Shown here one piece after another: positions 22,588 to 52,915 of a stretch of 64,000 bases of DNA (position 1 is the stretch's first letter; each line of letters starts with the position of its first letter). A program made the translations under genes and the position numbers. Location: contig JADYZV010000070.1 of assembly GCA_020852965.1 (NCBI GenBank), positions 1 through 64,000 on the forward strand, read 5' to 3'. The DNA comes from Pirellulaceae bacterium. GTDB taxonomy: Bacteria; Planctomycetota; Planctomycetia; Pirellulales; Pirellulaceae. The notes below the pieces were generated by a model. That model searched no databases. It saw nothing but the letters and a program-made list of their open reading frames with translations, and was not told where the DNA came from.

Positions 22588-22750
22588 GTAGGCTCGTAAC
22601 AAGCACCGCGCAGTCACTAATGTGGCTACCAATGTGGCTCGACGCTCCGCGTCGTGAGAAATCGCTAGATAATGTGGCTCGACGCTCCGCGTCGTGAGAA
22701 AGCGGCTAGATAATGTGGCTCGACGCTCCGCGTCGTGAGAAAGCGGCTAG
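22588..22750. repeat. GTAGGCTCGTAAC unit plus three tandem 40-base hairpin repeats
   Basis: GTAGGCTCGTAACAAGCACC lies at 22588 (relatives at 37722 inverted and 43599). Then come three copies of an approximately 40-base unit containing the hairpin GACGC-TCC-GCGTC, starting at 22631, 22671 and 22712 (spacing 40 and 41). A single copy is at 13777. The units are nearly identical, suggesting recent tandem duplication. Confidence 0.88.
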
Positions 22751-22809
22751 AACCTAGTTGGCATGCGCATTGGTGCGGAGCAGATAGCTGCCGCTGATGC
22801 CACGCACTG

Positions 22810-33721: not shown

Positions 33722-33986
33722 TACAGCACCTTCCAAAGTTAGTGAGACAAGCTTAACGCGACCGAGTGCCGATGGTAAAACAAGCCATCCGGACGTCGCG
33801 GGAACTGGCGGCAAAGCCGAGCGGCTGAGCTTCGCCAATTCCAACTCCACGCTCTCTCAAACCATTTCGGCAGTCCAAAGTTCCGCCGAGGTACCGCACA
33901 ATTTAGCGTTTCCGCTCGCTATTTGGACAAAATTTCGCAAAAACCGCCAAACTCATGTAAGGAAACCGCGTTCCCAACCGTCTTAA

Positions 33987-34126
33987 TTGGTGCTTGGTGC
34001 TTGGTGCTTGGTGCTTGGTGCTTGGTGCTTGGTGCTTGGTGCTTGGTGCTTGGTGCTTGGTGCTTGGTGCTTGGTGCCTGGTGCTTGGTGCTTGGTGCTT
34101 GGTGCCTGGTGCTTGGTGCTTGGTGC
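33987..34126. repeat. Heptanucleotide array, 20 x TTGGTGC
   Basis: Twenty head-to-tail copies of TTGGTGC in perfect 7-base register over 140 bases. Units 14 and 18 (34078 and 34106) read CTGGTGC; the others are identical. On the other strand the unit is GCACCAA, which reappears as three units at 34594-34614 inside the 3' end of the next gene. The 15 bases 34127-34141 separate this array from the next. Confidence 0.98.
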
Positions 34127-34141
34127 TGTAGGCACTATTTC

Positions 34142-34225
34142 GAACTAAGAACTAAGAACTAAGAACTAAGAACTAAGAACCAAGAACTAAGAACTAAGAA
34201 CTAAGAACTAAGAACTAAGAACTAA
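34142..34225. repeat. Heptanucleotide array, 12 x GAACTAA
   Basis: Twelve copies of GAACTAA in register over 84 bases; unit 6 (34177) is GAACCAA. The array ends exactly where the Shine-Dalgarno of the four-helix-bundle gene begins, so the last unit donates the TAA of TAAGGAGG. Confidence 0.98.
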
Positions 34226-34230
34226 GGAGG
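34224..34230 (+). promoter_or_regulatory. Consensus Shine-Dalgarno formed at the array edge
   Basis: AAGGAGG, seven bases before the ATG at 34238. It is the strongest ribosome binding site noticed in the window, and its first bases are the end of the last GAACTAA unit. Most neighbouring genes have weak or no Shine-Dalgarno. Confidence 0.85.
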
Positions 34231-34237
34231 ATTAGAA

Positions 34238-34621
34238 ATGAAGATCGAGCGATTTGAAGACATTGAAGGCTGGCAGATGGCTCGCGAATTGACTCGCACC
34301 ATCTACACTTTGGCGAGGCAAGCGGAGTTTTCACGCGACTTTGGGTTGAAAGGCCAGATGCAGCGCGCAAGTGGATCAGCGATGCACAACATTGCTGAGG
34401 GTTTTGATGGAGGCAGCAACGCCGAGTTTGCGAAGTTTTTGCGTTACGCACAGCGTTCTTCGACAGAGGTCAAGAGTCAGCTTTACGTAGCCATAGATCA
34501 GAGTTACATCAGCCAGCAGCAATTTGACGATGCATACGCGTTAGCAACCGCCACTCACTCCAAGATCGGCGGCTTCATTCGCTATCTAACCAAGCACCAA
34601 GCACCAAGCACCAAGAACTAA
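34238..34621 (+). CDS. Four-helix-bundle protein, S23/IVP family, C-terminus encoded by heptamers
   Basis: 127 residues of the four-helix-bundle family first known from 23S rRNA intervening sequences; Avd of diversity-generating retroelements has the same fold. Landmarks are IERFEDIEGWQMARELTRTI, FGLKGQMQRASGSAMHNIAE followed by GF, and FAKFLRYAQRSSTEVKSQLY. The last residues TKHQAPSTKN are translated from GCACCAA units, and the stop codon TAA (34619-34621) comes from the first GAACTAA unit. The gene thus sits inside a repeat block: 20 TTGGTGC and 12 GAACTAA upstream, 3 GCACCAA and 31 GAACYAA downstream. No rRNA, reverse transcriptase or variable repeat is nearby. Function unknown; a small basic RNA- or protein-binding role is typical of the fold. 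Confidence 0.9.
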   Translation: MKIERFEDIEGWQMARELTRTIYTLARQAEFSRDFGLKGQMQRASGSAMHNIAEGFDGGSNAEFAKFLRYAQRSSTEVKSQLYVAIDQSYISQQQFDDAYALATATHSKIGGFIRYLTKHQAPSTKN

Positions 34622-34831
34622 GAACTAAGAACTAAGAACCAAGAACCAAGAACCAAGAACTAAGAACCAAGAACTAAGAACTAAGAACCAAGGACCAAGA
34701 ACCAAGAACCAAGAACCAAGAACCAAGAACCAAGAACCAAGAACTAAGAACTAAGAACCAAGAACCAAGAACTAAGAACCAAGAACCAAGAACCAAGAAC
34801 CAAGAACCAAGAACTAAGAACTAAGAACTAA
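34594..34831. repeat. Heptanucleotide array, 3 x GCACCAA then 31 x GAACYAA
   Basis: Three GCACCAA units (34594-34614) pass without a break of register into 31 GAACYAA units (34615-34831), a mixture of GAACTAA and GAACCAA with one GGACCAA at 34692. No indel breaks the 7-base phase over 238 bases. The array ends at a partial GAAC, and recG starts eight bases after the last full unit. Confidence 0.97.
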
Positions 34832-34838
34832 GAACGTC

Positions 34839-36929
34839 ATGAACAGCCAAGGGATAAAAAGCTCGCTCCACCAACCGCTGGCGGCGCACGCCGCCGTTGG
34901 AGTGGCGCGCGGCGAGCTGCTGGCGCGGTTGGGGATCCGTCGCCCCATTGACCTGCTGTTCTTCTTTCCGCGCGGCTATGACGAGCCCGCACCGCTGCAG
35001 GCATCGACACAGTTCGTCGAAAACACGCGCGTCGCTTTTGCAGGGACTGTCGTCGAGATTTCGGGACGCGTGACCCAAACAGGAAAGCACATCTTGGGTG
35101 TGCTGGTGGCTGCTGACGATGGCGGTGCCGTGCGTTTGACTTGGTTCAATCAACCTTTCCGACGCAATGACCTGCGCGTGGGTCTGCGGCTGGTCGCCAG
35201 CGGGTTGCTGCGGTCGACCGTGCTCAACTGGGAAATGGTGCAACCTACAATCACGCCATTGGCCGATGACGAACCAGCGGCACTCGCCAAACCCCTTCCA
35301 CGCTATTCGCTGACCGAAGGGCTCAAGCAAGCGGCGGTGCGCAGCACGATGCAGGAAGTGGCCCGACCGTTGATCGAACATATCGACGAAGTGCTACCCG
35401 ACTGGCTCCGCGAGCGACTGCAAGTGCCCGATGTGCATCGCGCGCTGGCCGACATTCACTTCCCCGAAAACATGGAAGCCGCACTGGCAGCTCAACGGCG
35501 TTTCAAAACGCAGGAATTACTGGTGCTGCAATTGGCCATCACGCTGCAGCGCCAGCAGCGCGAGCTGTCCGCCCAAGCACCACCCTGCGAACCCTCGGGC
35601 AAAATCCATGCCCGCATTTTGAATCGCCTGCAACACACGCTCACGCACGATCAACTTGCAGCCGTGGCCGATATCGGGCGAGATATGGCTCGCGAGCGAC
35701 CGATGAACCGCCTATTGCAGGGGGACGTGGGGAGCGGCAAGACGCTGGTTGCGCAGTACGCGATGCTGCTCTGCGCTGCCTATGGACATCAAGCCGCTTT
35801 GATGGCGCCTACCGAAGTACTGGCGCGACAGCACGCCGACAACTTGCAACGCAGCTTGGCGTCCAGCCGCGTGCGCGTCGCCTTGCTAACCGGCAGTATG
35901 GGCCGCAGTGAGCGCAGAGGGGTCGTCGAAAGTGCAGCGTCCGGCGCGGTCGACTTACTTGTTGGAACGCAAGCCCTGCTATCGTCCGACGTGCAGTTTA
36001 AAGACTTGGGATTGGTGATCGTCGACGAGCAACACAAGTTCGGTGTGGTGCAGCGCGCCAAATTGCGCACCGAATCGCAGCAGCCGCACTACTTGGTGCT
36101 CAGCGCGACGCCCATTCCGCGGACGATCGCTATGACTGCGTTCGGCGACTTGGACGTTTCGACGATTCGTGAAAAGCCGCCGGGTCGCGCACCGGTCAAC
36201 ACCTATATCTCCACCCCCGAAAACTTGCCTGCCTGGTGGGAGTTTGTCGATCGTCAGCTCTCGAAGGGTCGCCAAGCCTATGTGATCGCACCGCGCGTAG
36301 CCGAAGTCGATGCGAGCGATGCGGCCAGCGCCGAAGGTATCTATGAAAGTCTGCGCGATGGGCCATTGAGTCATCGCCGCATCGGTCTGCTGCACGGACG
36401 CCTGGAGAGCAGCGACAAGGAGTCGGTGCTCGGCCAGTTTTCCCGCGGTGATTTGGAAATTCTGGTTGCGACGACCGTGGTCGAGGTGGGAATCGATGTT
36501 CCCAATGCGACTCTGATGAGTATTCTCGATGCGAATAAGCTGGGCTTGTCGCAGTTGCATCAATTGCGAGGCCGCGTATCGCGCAGCTCGCATAGCGGAT
36601 TTGTGTGCGCAGTTGCGGCTGCTGGGTGCGATACGGAAGACAATCAGCGCTTGCAAGCCTTTGCCAAGAGCGATGATGGTTTTGAGTTGGCCGAGATGGA
36701 TTTGGTCATGCGTGGTCCAGGCGATTTGTTAGGCACATCGCAAAGCGGCTTACCCTCGCTGCGCATCGCGAACTTGGTCGACGACGCTGCGCTATTAGCA
36801 CTCGCTCGCGAAGTGGCCAAAGAACTTCTGCGCGACGATCCGCAGCTCGCAGCACCCCAGCTCGATAAGCTGCGCCGTCAAACGGTGGTGCGCTACGGCG
36901 AGTCGATGCAGCTCAGCGACGTGGGCTGA
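34839..36929 (+). CDS. recG: ATP-dependent DNA helicase RecG
   Basis: 696 residues, normal for RecG, which remodels stalled forks and Holliday junctions. The N-terminal wedge/OB domain includes LARLGIRRPIDLLFFFPRGYD. Helicase motifs follow: Walker A GDVGSGKT (about 297), APTEVLARQ, the DEQH box VDEQHKFGV, SATPIPRT, TTVVEVGIDVPNAT and the QLRGRVSRS motif VI, then the C-terminal GDLLGTSQSGLP. The ATG at 34839 comes eight bases after the last GAACYAA unit, so the whole proximal leader is repeat DNA and no Shine-Dalgarno is visible. Any length change in the array would alter this leader directly. Confidence 0.96.
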   Translation: MNSQGIKSSLHQPLAAHAAVGVARGELLARLGIRRPIDLLFFFPRGYDEPAPLQASTQFVENTRVAFAGTVVEISGRVTQTGKHILGVLVAADDGGAVRLTWFNQPFRRNDLRVGLRLVASGLLRSTVLNWEMVQPTITPLADDEPAALAKPLPRYSLTEGLKQAAVRSTMQEVARPLIEHIDEVLPDWLRERLQVPDVHRALADIHFPENMEAALAAQRRFKTQELLVLQLAITLQRQQRELSAQAPPCEPSGKIHARILNRLQHTLTHDQLAAVADIGRDMARERPMNRLLQGDVGSGKTLVAQYAMLLCAAYGHQAALMAPTEVLARQHADNLQRSLASSRVRVALLTGSMGRSERRGVVESAASGAVDLLVGTQALLSSDVQFKDLGLVIVDEQHKFGVVQRAKLRTESQQPHYLVLSATPIPRTIAMTAFGDLDVSTIREKPPGRAPVNTYISTPENLPAWWEFVDRQLSKGRQAYVIAPRVAEVDASDAASAEGIYESLRDGPLSHRRIGLLHGRLESSDKESVLGQFSRGDLEILVATTVVEVGIDVPNATLMSILDANKLGLSQLHQLRGRVSRSSHSGFVCAVAAAGCDTEDNQRLQAFAKSDDGFELAEMDLVMRGPGDLLGTSQSGLPSLRIANLVDDAALLALAREVAKELLRDDPQLAAPQLDKLRRQTVVRYGESMQLSDVG

Positions 36930-37893: not shown

Positions 37894-38679
37894 GTGCAAA
37901 TTCTGCTGACCAATGACGATGGGATCTACGCACCGGGGCTGGCCGCCTTACGAGAAGGTCTGCGCTGCATGGGGAATGTACGCCTGGTCGCACCGGCTGT
38001 CGAGCAGAGTGGCGTGGGGCATTCGATTACTTTCTTGGAACCGCTGGTCTGTAAAGAGATCTATCGCGGCGACGAATTGATCGGTACGGCTGTCGAGGGG
38101 AGTCCGGCAGATTGCGTCAAACTGGGCGTTTCCGTGCTCGTCGACGGGCCGATCGACTTGGTGGTCAGCGGCATCAATGGCGGCTTGAATGCAGGGATCA
38201 ATGTGCTCTATTCGGGGACAGTAGCCGCAGCCATTGAAGGGGCTTTCTTTCGGCTCAACAGCTTTGCCGTCTCGCTTGAATACGATCCCCGAGCCGACTT
38301 CGAAGCGGCTGCGCGCATGGCCGTGCCGCTGATCCAGCAAATATTGGACAAGAAGGACGCGCCACCGCAGCTCTACAATATCAACATTCCTACCGCAGCG
38401 GTCGAGAAGTTCCGTGCTGGTGGCACGCCTGAAGTGCATATCGTGCCGATGGGAGTCGAGCGTTATGGAGAGCACTACATTCGTCGGCAAGACCCCAAGG
38501 GGCGCGACTACTTTTGGGCCACCAACGATCCGCCGCCACGTCGCACCGACCATCCCACCGACTTGACGATGTTGTCCGATGGTCATGTGACCGTGACGCC
38601 TTTGATGTTCGACATGACCGACACCGCCACGTTTGCCAAAATGGCGCACTGGAAGCTCGAAGTGCGTCAGTCGAGTTAA
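37894..38679 (+). CDS. surE: 5'/3'-nucleotidase SurE
   Basis: 261 residues of the metal-dependent nucleoside-monophosphate phosphatase SurE. The N-terminal MQILLTNDDGIYAPGLAALR carries the metal-binding Asp-Asp pair. SGVGHSITF and VVSGINGGLNAGINVLYSGT are the other active-site loops. LSDGHVTVTPLMFDMTD is the C-terminal family signature. The start is a GTG at 37894 with GGAG about six bases upstream. The stop codon TAA shares its last base with a 6-unit heptamer array. Confidence 0.95.
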   Translation: MQILLTNDDGIYAPGLAALREGLRCMGNVRLVAPAVEQSGVGHSITFLEPLVCKEIYRGDELIGTAVEGSPADCVKLGVSVLVDGPIDLVVSGINGGLNAGINVLYSGTVAAAIEGAFFRLNSFAVSLEYDPRADFEAAARMAVPLIQQILDKKDAPPQLYNINIPTAAVEKFRAGGTPEVHIVPMGVERYGEHYIRRQDPKGRDYFWATNDPPPRRTDHPTDLTMLSDGHVTVTPLMFDMTDTATFAKMAHWKLEVRQSS

Positions 38680-38720
38680 GTTGCTAGTTGCTAGTTGCTA
38701 GTTGCTAGTTGCTAGTTGCT
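38679..38720. repeat. Heptanucleotide array, 6 x AGTTGCT
   Basis: Six exact AGTTGCT units in register, beginning on the last base of the surE stop codon. On the other strand the rotated unit is CTAGCAA, one of the same sequence family as CTAAGAA, CCAAGAA and CCAAGCA at 34-34.8 kb. Confidence 0.97.
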
Positions 38721-52829: not shown

Positions 52830-52844
52830 GAGTCGTTTCCTATC

Positions 52845-52893
52845 TTAGTTCTTAGTTCTTGGTTCTTGGTTCTTGGTTCTTGGTTCTTGGTTC
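52845..52893. repeat. Heptanucleotide array, 7 x TTRGTTC (GAACYAA on the minus strand)
   Basis: Two TTAGTTC and five TTGGTTC units in register. Read on the coding strand of the lipoprotein gene this is (GAACCAA)5(GAACTAA)2, ending 16 bases before the TTG start. Same units and orientation relative to the start codon as before recG and the four-helix-bundle gene. Confidence 0.96.
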
Positions 52894-52915
52894 TTTTCAT
52901 TTTCTTATTCTGGCT

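Follow-up and report, generated by a model that had tools for sequence, protein, structure and literature searches.

An S23/IVP gene between heptanucleotide arrays beside recG in a Pirellulaceae bacterium and its place in a candidate class of stem-loop elements

Why is a gene for a small four-helix protein enclosed by some 66 copies of a seven-base repeat? This question is raised by a locus in the window, that is to say, the 64,000-nucleotide stretch of a Pirellulaceae bacterium contig that we analyzed, in which a gene of the S23/IVP family lies between tandem heptamer arrays directly before recG. An earlier note, made from the letters of the sequence alone, took the gene and its arrays for one integrated unit, possibly one in which the protein acts on or spreads with its repeats. 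Here, we describe the locus, compare it with other IVP loci, and weigh the explanations that it admits.

The locus beside recG

The features of the locus, and one related array elsewhere in the window, are as follows.

33987–34127, plus strand: 5' arm of 20 TTGGTGC-type units (18 TTGGTGC and 2 CTGGTGC); 20.1 copies by Tandem Repeats Finder
34127–34141: 15-nt spacer, a possible hairpin loop between the TTGGTGC and GAACTAA arrays; same form at locus L252
34142–34226, plus strand: 12 GAACTAA-type units (11 GAACTAA and 1 GAACCAA); 12.1 copies by Tandem Repeats Finder
34224–34230, plus strand: Shine-Dalgarno-like AAGGAGG at the edge of the left array, recognized by eye, 7 nt before the ATG
34238–34621, plus strand: gene of the S23/IVP four-helix protein, 127 aa (PF05635, E 8e-29; TIGR02436, E 2e-27)
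34594–34614, plus strand: 3 GCACCAA units, the start of the 3' arm, inside the end of the gene
34615–34835, plus strand: 31 GAACYAA-type units (30 GAACYAA and 1 GGACCAA), then a partial GAAC
34839–36929, plus strand: recG, the neighbor of the insertion, outside the element (NF008168, E 1.5e-223)
52843–52895, minus strand: gene-less array of TCTTGGT (same unit), 7.6 copies by Tandem Repeats Finder

A unit-by-unit reading agrees with the earlier count of about 66 heptamers (20, 12, 3, and 31) around the gene. The right repeat tract (34588–34835, 35.4 copies by Tandem Repeats Finder) encodes the last ten residues of the protein, TKHQAPSTKN, with the stop codon TAA provided by the first GAACYAA-type unit, and ends 3 nt before the recG start; both this contribution and the Shine-Dalgarno-like site formed by the edge of the left array had been read correctly in the note. 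The perfect 7-base register that it described holds within each array and is broken across arrays by the 15-nt spacer and the gene. GCACCAA is the reverse complement of TTGGTGC, and the GAACTAA-type units at 34142–34226 run in direct orientation relative to the right array.

The RNA fold predicted for positions 33980–34845 lies 11 SD below those of 20 dinucleotide shuffles (z −11); in it, the left TTGGTGC array and the right array are base-paired, with the IVP gene enclosed between them. The window arrays are not a product of chance, as is evident from this fold and from the genome-wide dispersal of both units (described below). The left part of the locus (33987–34226) resembles a gene-less miniature hairpin.

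Two other repeats in the window were observed. Six copies of AGTTGCT, a heptamer array of another unit, extend from the surE stop codon on (38679–38720), and a tandem 41-mer (22631–22751) shares similar palindromic cores, CGACGCTCCGC, with a 38-mer at a separate place in the genome (L007, 901–1052).

Heptamer arrays around IVP genes and away from them

All six IVP genes of this genome have short arrays close by, which are built from different units with periods of 7, 6, or 15–16 (Tandem Repeats Finder), lie on one or both sides, and look inverted by eye between the two sides in several cases. Thus, the arrays are no peculiarity of the window copy, whereas their length is. The best 80 of 575 IVP relatives from named genomes, picked by protein similarity and not by repeats, included genes from Planctomycetes, Cyanobacteria, Chloroflexi, Acidobacteria, several Proteobacteria, Spirochaetes, Bacteroidota, Fibrobacteres, and others. 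A tandem array with a period of at most 20 was present within 200 nt of 69 of these 80 genes, and the period was 7 or 14 in 63 of the 69. This recurrence over many phyla supports the view of gene and arrays as one unit.

Sequence identity at distance 7 was 0.363 and 0.369 in the 150 nt on either side of IVP genes, compared with 0.250–0.266 in farther bins and 0.258 inside the gene; distance 14 behaved like distance 7, and other distances hardly changed. We pooled 170 IVP genes and removed those at least 80% identical, which left 145, of which 137 had 200 nt on both sides. Strong period-7 stretches accompanied 83 of the 137 genes and only 4 of 252 control windows 700–900 nt away, which are mostly coding; that is to say, IVP homologs are not usually free of arrays. 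The remaining 54 genes had no strong period-7 stretch, and a period-8 stretch was found near 10 of the 137. When intergenic segments served as the control, period-7 arrays were present in 13 of 32 IVP segments and 18 of 112 others, a weaker contrast because these genomes carry arrays elsewhere too. After removal of an N run, 45 heptamer arrays were counted in about 369 kb lying more than 300 nt from an IVP gene, and 129 kb of IVP-less loci, whose taxa are partly different, contained none.

About 3.3 kb around the IVP genes of three loci (L002 and L004 of this genome and L065 of genome G009) is 76–80% identical across the three, and some IVP loci were therefore inherited or duplicated together with their surroundings. 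On two plasmids of Calothrix brevissima NIES-22 (L243 and L244), a phage-integrase-family gene and then an IVP gene occur in the same order.

Comparison of the two flanks of IVP genes revealed that (i) own flank pairs had a median inverted local score of 22, compared with 9 in both swapped pairs and distant windows, and the inverted similarity exceeded the 99th percentile of swapped pairs at 42 of 76 loci versus 0 of 64 distant controls; (ii) the 5' unit was the reverse complement of the 3' unit at 6–7 of 7 positions in 46 of the 54 genes with arrays on both sides (swapped pairs match in 7%); (iii) the 5' arm contained 41% G and 14% C, and the 3' arm was its mirror image; and (iv) the arm length was 29–34 nt, about five units, in 64 of 132 cases, with a sharp drop above, in an estimate that uses no analysis window and in which short arms are cut off by the threshold. 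A peak at exactly five units was discarded, being partly produced by the 35-nt analysis window. Direct repeats were likewise rejected as the basic plan, since they exceeded the swapped 99th percentile at 13 of the 76 loci only. The basic layout is one of inverted arms and not, as the note had supposed from the window, of ends that are half inverted and half direct; the direct GAACTAA stretch seems to be the 3' arm of a hairpin of its own (33987–34226). Strong predicted RNA folds agree with inverted arms. The window locus is an unusually expanded case of this general pattern.

Arrays of the window units are dispersed over the whole genome. There were 803 matches to GAACYAAx3, for which the reversed-unit control (301 matches) is invalid, since reversing the unit yields a rotation of GAACCAA, and 159 matches to TTGGTGCx3 versus 0 in the control. 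The fetched arrays were mostly single; hairpin doublets were recognized as such at L252 (contig C28), a hairpin of the window's kind, and in the left part of the window locus only. Contigs C9 (start), C28 (end), C54, and C65 (start) of this assembly (G000) begin or end in heptamer arrays, so that array numbers and lengths are probably underestimated.

Gene-less hairpins also occur in the alphaproteobacterial family of Rhodopseudomonas rhenobacensis, a species whose IVP unit is GCGAATA. In this family, GCGARTRx3 is present outside the IVP locus in 9 of the 10 genomes with an IVP gene (mean 19.4) and in 29 of the 109 others (mean 1.8; Fisher p 1.3e-4, a value that ignores phylogeny). Hairpins made up 19 of the 20 GCGARTRx3 loci in the five IVP genomes whose places were all listed, and these miniatures consist of 4–7 units, a loop of 1–40 nt, and 3–10 inverted units. 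Some occupy orthologous sites in two or three genomes, one such pair (G124 and G081) including a genome without an IVP gene; many of the hairpins are therefore old.

Inside a given locus, arrays at a distance of over 300 nt matched the unit of the resident IVP gene at 6–7 of 7 positions in 11 of 14 cases versus 1.6 expected (permutation p 5e-5), to which local duplication could contribute. Across genomes, GTGAATG arrays were confined to the one genome of 21 whose IVP gene has that unit (at the IVP locus and one other place). GGCAGTC arrays occurred in 4 of 21 genomes, two of them predicted from the IVP unit (each with a single match, either at the IVP locus or outside it) and two not (G191, 11 matches; G063, 1), and were absent from the predicted genome G193. 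Arrays of GAACYAA, among 15 genomes of the genus, were present in this genome and one congener (G003, 16 matches), whose two IVP genes have other units. Exact co-specificity of IVP gene and array unit everywhere was rejected on the mismatches in G003, G191, and G193. The suggestion that the unit spreads thus gains indirect support from the gene-less hairpins, while the matching of units between arrays and IVP genes is mixed.

We consider it unlikely that these arrays are ordinary slippage-prone repeats near which IVP genes merely lodge, with the protein unrelated to them. Slippage has been proposed for bacterial heptamers in the accessible parts of PMC4679880 and PMC4692102, and such an origin would suit the arrays away from IVP genes, both in the 18 of 112 intergenic segments and the 45 cases in about 369 kb, as well as those in the 29 IVP-less genomes of the R. 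rhenobacensis family. However, slippage alone gives neither reverse-complementary arms nor their fixed G-rich and C-rich order, and neither arms of about five units nor gene-less hairpins; the lack of arrays in 129 kb of IVP-less loci from partly different taxa also speaks against it.

Occupied sites, empty sites, and host genes

recG was found in 14 of the 15 genomes of the genus. At the recG loci of 13 congeners, tblastn detected no IVP match, and the only period-7 array comprised 2.4 copies; the divergent neighbor of recG was matched in 10 of the 13, two of these matches being fragmentary. Gene and comparable arrays are thus missing together at all 13 sites, which again agrees with one unit, and none of these orthologous loci has such arrays without the gene.

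In the R. rhenobacensis family, 10 of 119 genomes have an IVP gene, 9 of them at nuoC–nuoD; the tenth (in G123) lies at another site, carries an in-frame stop, and belongs to a genome without GCGARTR-type arrays. The 30 nuoC–nuoD loci contain the element in 3 cases, array pieces without the gene in 3 (L220, L228, and L232), gaps of at most 39 nt in 10, and gaps of 42–481 nt with other sequence in 14. The concentration of 9 of 10 genes at one site implies that movement is rare. Among the paralogous pairs listed, none had similarity that stops at the arms, the mark of recent transposition, and in the close pairs the similarity extended over the locus. No target duplication or transposase came to notice, the window locus having no close empty site for comparison.

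Elements also lie within protein genes. In 16 of 128 testable genes, another frame on the same strand had no stop from at least 200 nt before the element to at least 200 nt after it, with the same relative frame in all 16 and an open antisense frame as well in one. Over all 145 genes, that frame was open in 34 versus about 3 expected after synonymous shuffling, and the remaining frame was open in 1 and had as many stops as expected. Domain scans of 14 of the 16 host frames identified BREX-1 pglX (L001 of this genome and L091, which contains two IVP genes), Eco57I/MmeI-type methyltransferases (L039, L176, and L142), weak BREX-methyltransferase matches (L103 and L135), DUF1156 anti-phage genes (L046 and L191), an N6_N4 methylase (L116), an error-prone DNA polymerase on a viral contig (L076), and a CoA-dehydratase activase (L095); the scan gave no match for L147 and L082. 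At L001 (contig C125, 471–3314), the pglX frame runs without a stop through the IVP element. The methyltransferase motif DPACGS occurred within 240 nt downstream of 6 of 136 genes versus 1 of 502 control windows. Elements lying in frame in defense methyltransferase genes raise the question of how such genes tolerate them.

These settings would suit a reading in which selection acts on the RNA stem, with arms that insulate an insert in operons or genes and an IVP gene that is a decaying passenger. The elements abut stop and start codons, sit within an operon at nuoC–nuoD, and have strong predicted folds; the stems of 23S rRNA intervening sequences are cut by RNase III, and for Coxiella, whose own RNase III cuts the element in vitro according to the accessible part of PMC4990558, the S23 protein is presumed unexpressed and the authors favor a role of the RNA over one of the protein. 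We nevertheless judge this reading quite improbable, as in-frame stops are rare among the IVP matches listed and the hairpins tend to carry the unit of the resident IVP gene. The arrays do contribute both the Shine-Dalgarno-like site and the end of the IVP gene, and they reach to within 3 nt of the recG start; even so, a phase-variable contingency locus, in which the number of units tunes the expression of the IVP gene or recG, is highly implausible, given congeners that have recG without any such array and a general pattern that recurs beside and inside unrelated genes.

The protein, the proposed class, and known systems

AlphaFold models the window IVP protein as four long helices, with a pLDDT of 93. 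Among solved structures, Xcc0516 (2gsc) and BT_0352 (2rld), each with five chains, come nearest, followed by the retroelement protein Avd (4dwl, 8ub7); 2gsc and Avd are described as pentamers. The profile matches of the window gene include PF05635 and TIGR02436 and no Y1 (HUH) transposase, and searches of Pfam and NCBIfam gave no transposase match for this gene or its six neighbors and no reverse transcriptase or other retroelement part among the six neighbors. The coincidence of about five units per arm with five subunits is what leads us to propose ring binding.

Taking together the observed architecture, inverted arms, matching units, presence and absence at sites, and hairpin miniatures of one family, we think that the window locus is probably an overgrown member of a widespread stem-loop class that has REPIN-like miniatures and a repeat-binding protein. 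The recurring layout and the gene-less miniature hairpins suggest an overlooked family of genetic elements. In this proposed class, an S23/IVP gene would occupy the loop between two tandem-heptamer arms, usually of about five units each, the 3' arm reverse-complementing the 5' arm; the class would correspond, outside rRNA, to the 23S rRNA intervening sequences, and in this species an element would have come to lie between the divergent gene and recG. With these arms, the insert may fold out of the transcript as a stem in the cell. Each subunit of the IVP protein most likely binds about one heptamer, as RNA or single-stranded DNA, and the hairpins that share the unit but lack the gene are probably miniature copies, which relate to the gene as REPINs do to RAYTs, with presumed mobility and help in trans.

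A wider conjecture, which we offer tentatively as possible rather than probable, is that a pentameric ring protein reads about five units and multiplies or maintains the miniatures in trans, with a unit specific to each gene. This would be a repeat system of its own, of which the bacterial excess of heptamers would largely be the trace and the rRNA intervening sequences a special case, and which would settle in frame, notably in phage-defense methyltransferase genes, with the host frame read through. The finding joins the S23/IVP family, whose role is unclear, with the over-representation of heptamers in bacteria, which has no agreed cause. It predicts an interaction of about one heptamer per subunit of a pentamer, for which many natural variants are on offer for comparing the IVP protein with the repeat unit.

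A literature search, with subscription journals mostly beyond its reach, found no paper in which heptamer arrays are connected with S23/IVP genes that lie outside rRNA. The heptamer repeats of Beggiatoaceae, Cyanobacteria, Xanthomonas, and Geobacter likewise form dispersed arrays, some of them inverted, but no link to an S23/IVP gene is described in the accessible portions of the reports, and the terms S23, four helix, and 23S do not appear in those portions of PMC4679880 and PMC4692102. The Avd protein of diversity-generating retroelements has a fold in common with the window IVP protein, and the likeness of Avd and PF05635 is noted in the accessible text of PMC10053308; by contrast, the six genes neighboring the window gene include no retroelement parts.

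The intervening sequences of 23S rRNA in Coxiella and Leptospira, as far as the sources were available, share with the present elements an S23/IVP gene between complementary, stem-forming ends. The Coxiella element, as described in the accessible part of PMC4990558, has a 28-bp terminal stem and an S23p gene preceded by heptamers, which differ from strain to strain. By contrast, the present elements are located in intergenic regions, operons, and protein genes, the window locus lying next to recG and not in rRNA; both arms are heptamer arrays, with 66 units in the window, and gene-less hairpins exist. REPINs are hairpins of inverted REPs that are tied to RAYT genes, according to the accessible part of PMC3116915, and the REPIN-RAYT system, as described there, resembles the proposed class in that short inverted repeats on both sides of a gene also occur scattered as hairpin doublets, the gene copies being few and the miniatures many. 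The present protein, however, belongs to PF05635 and not to the Y1 transposases, and its repeats are heptamer arrays whose unit is specific to the locus.
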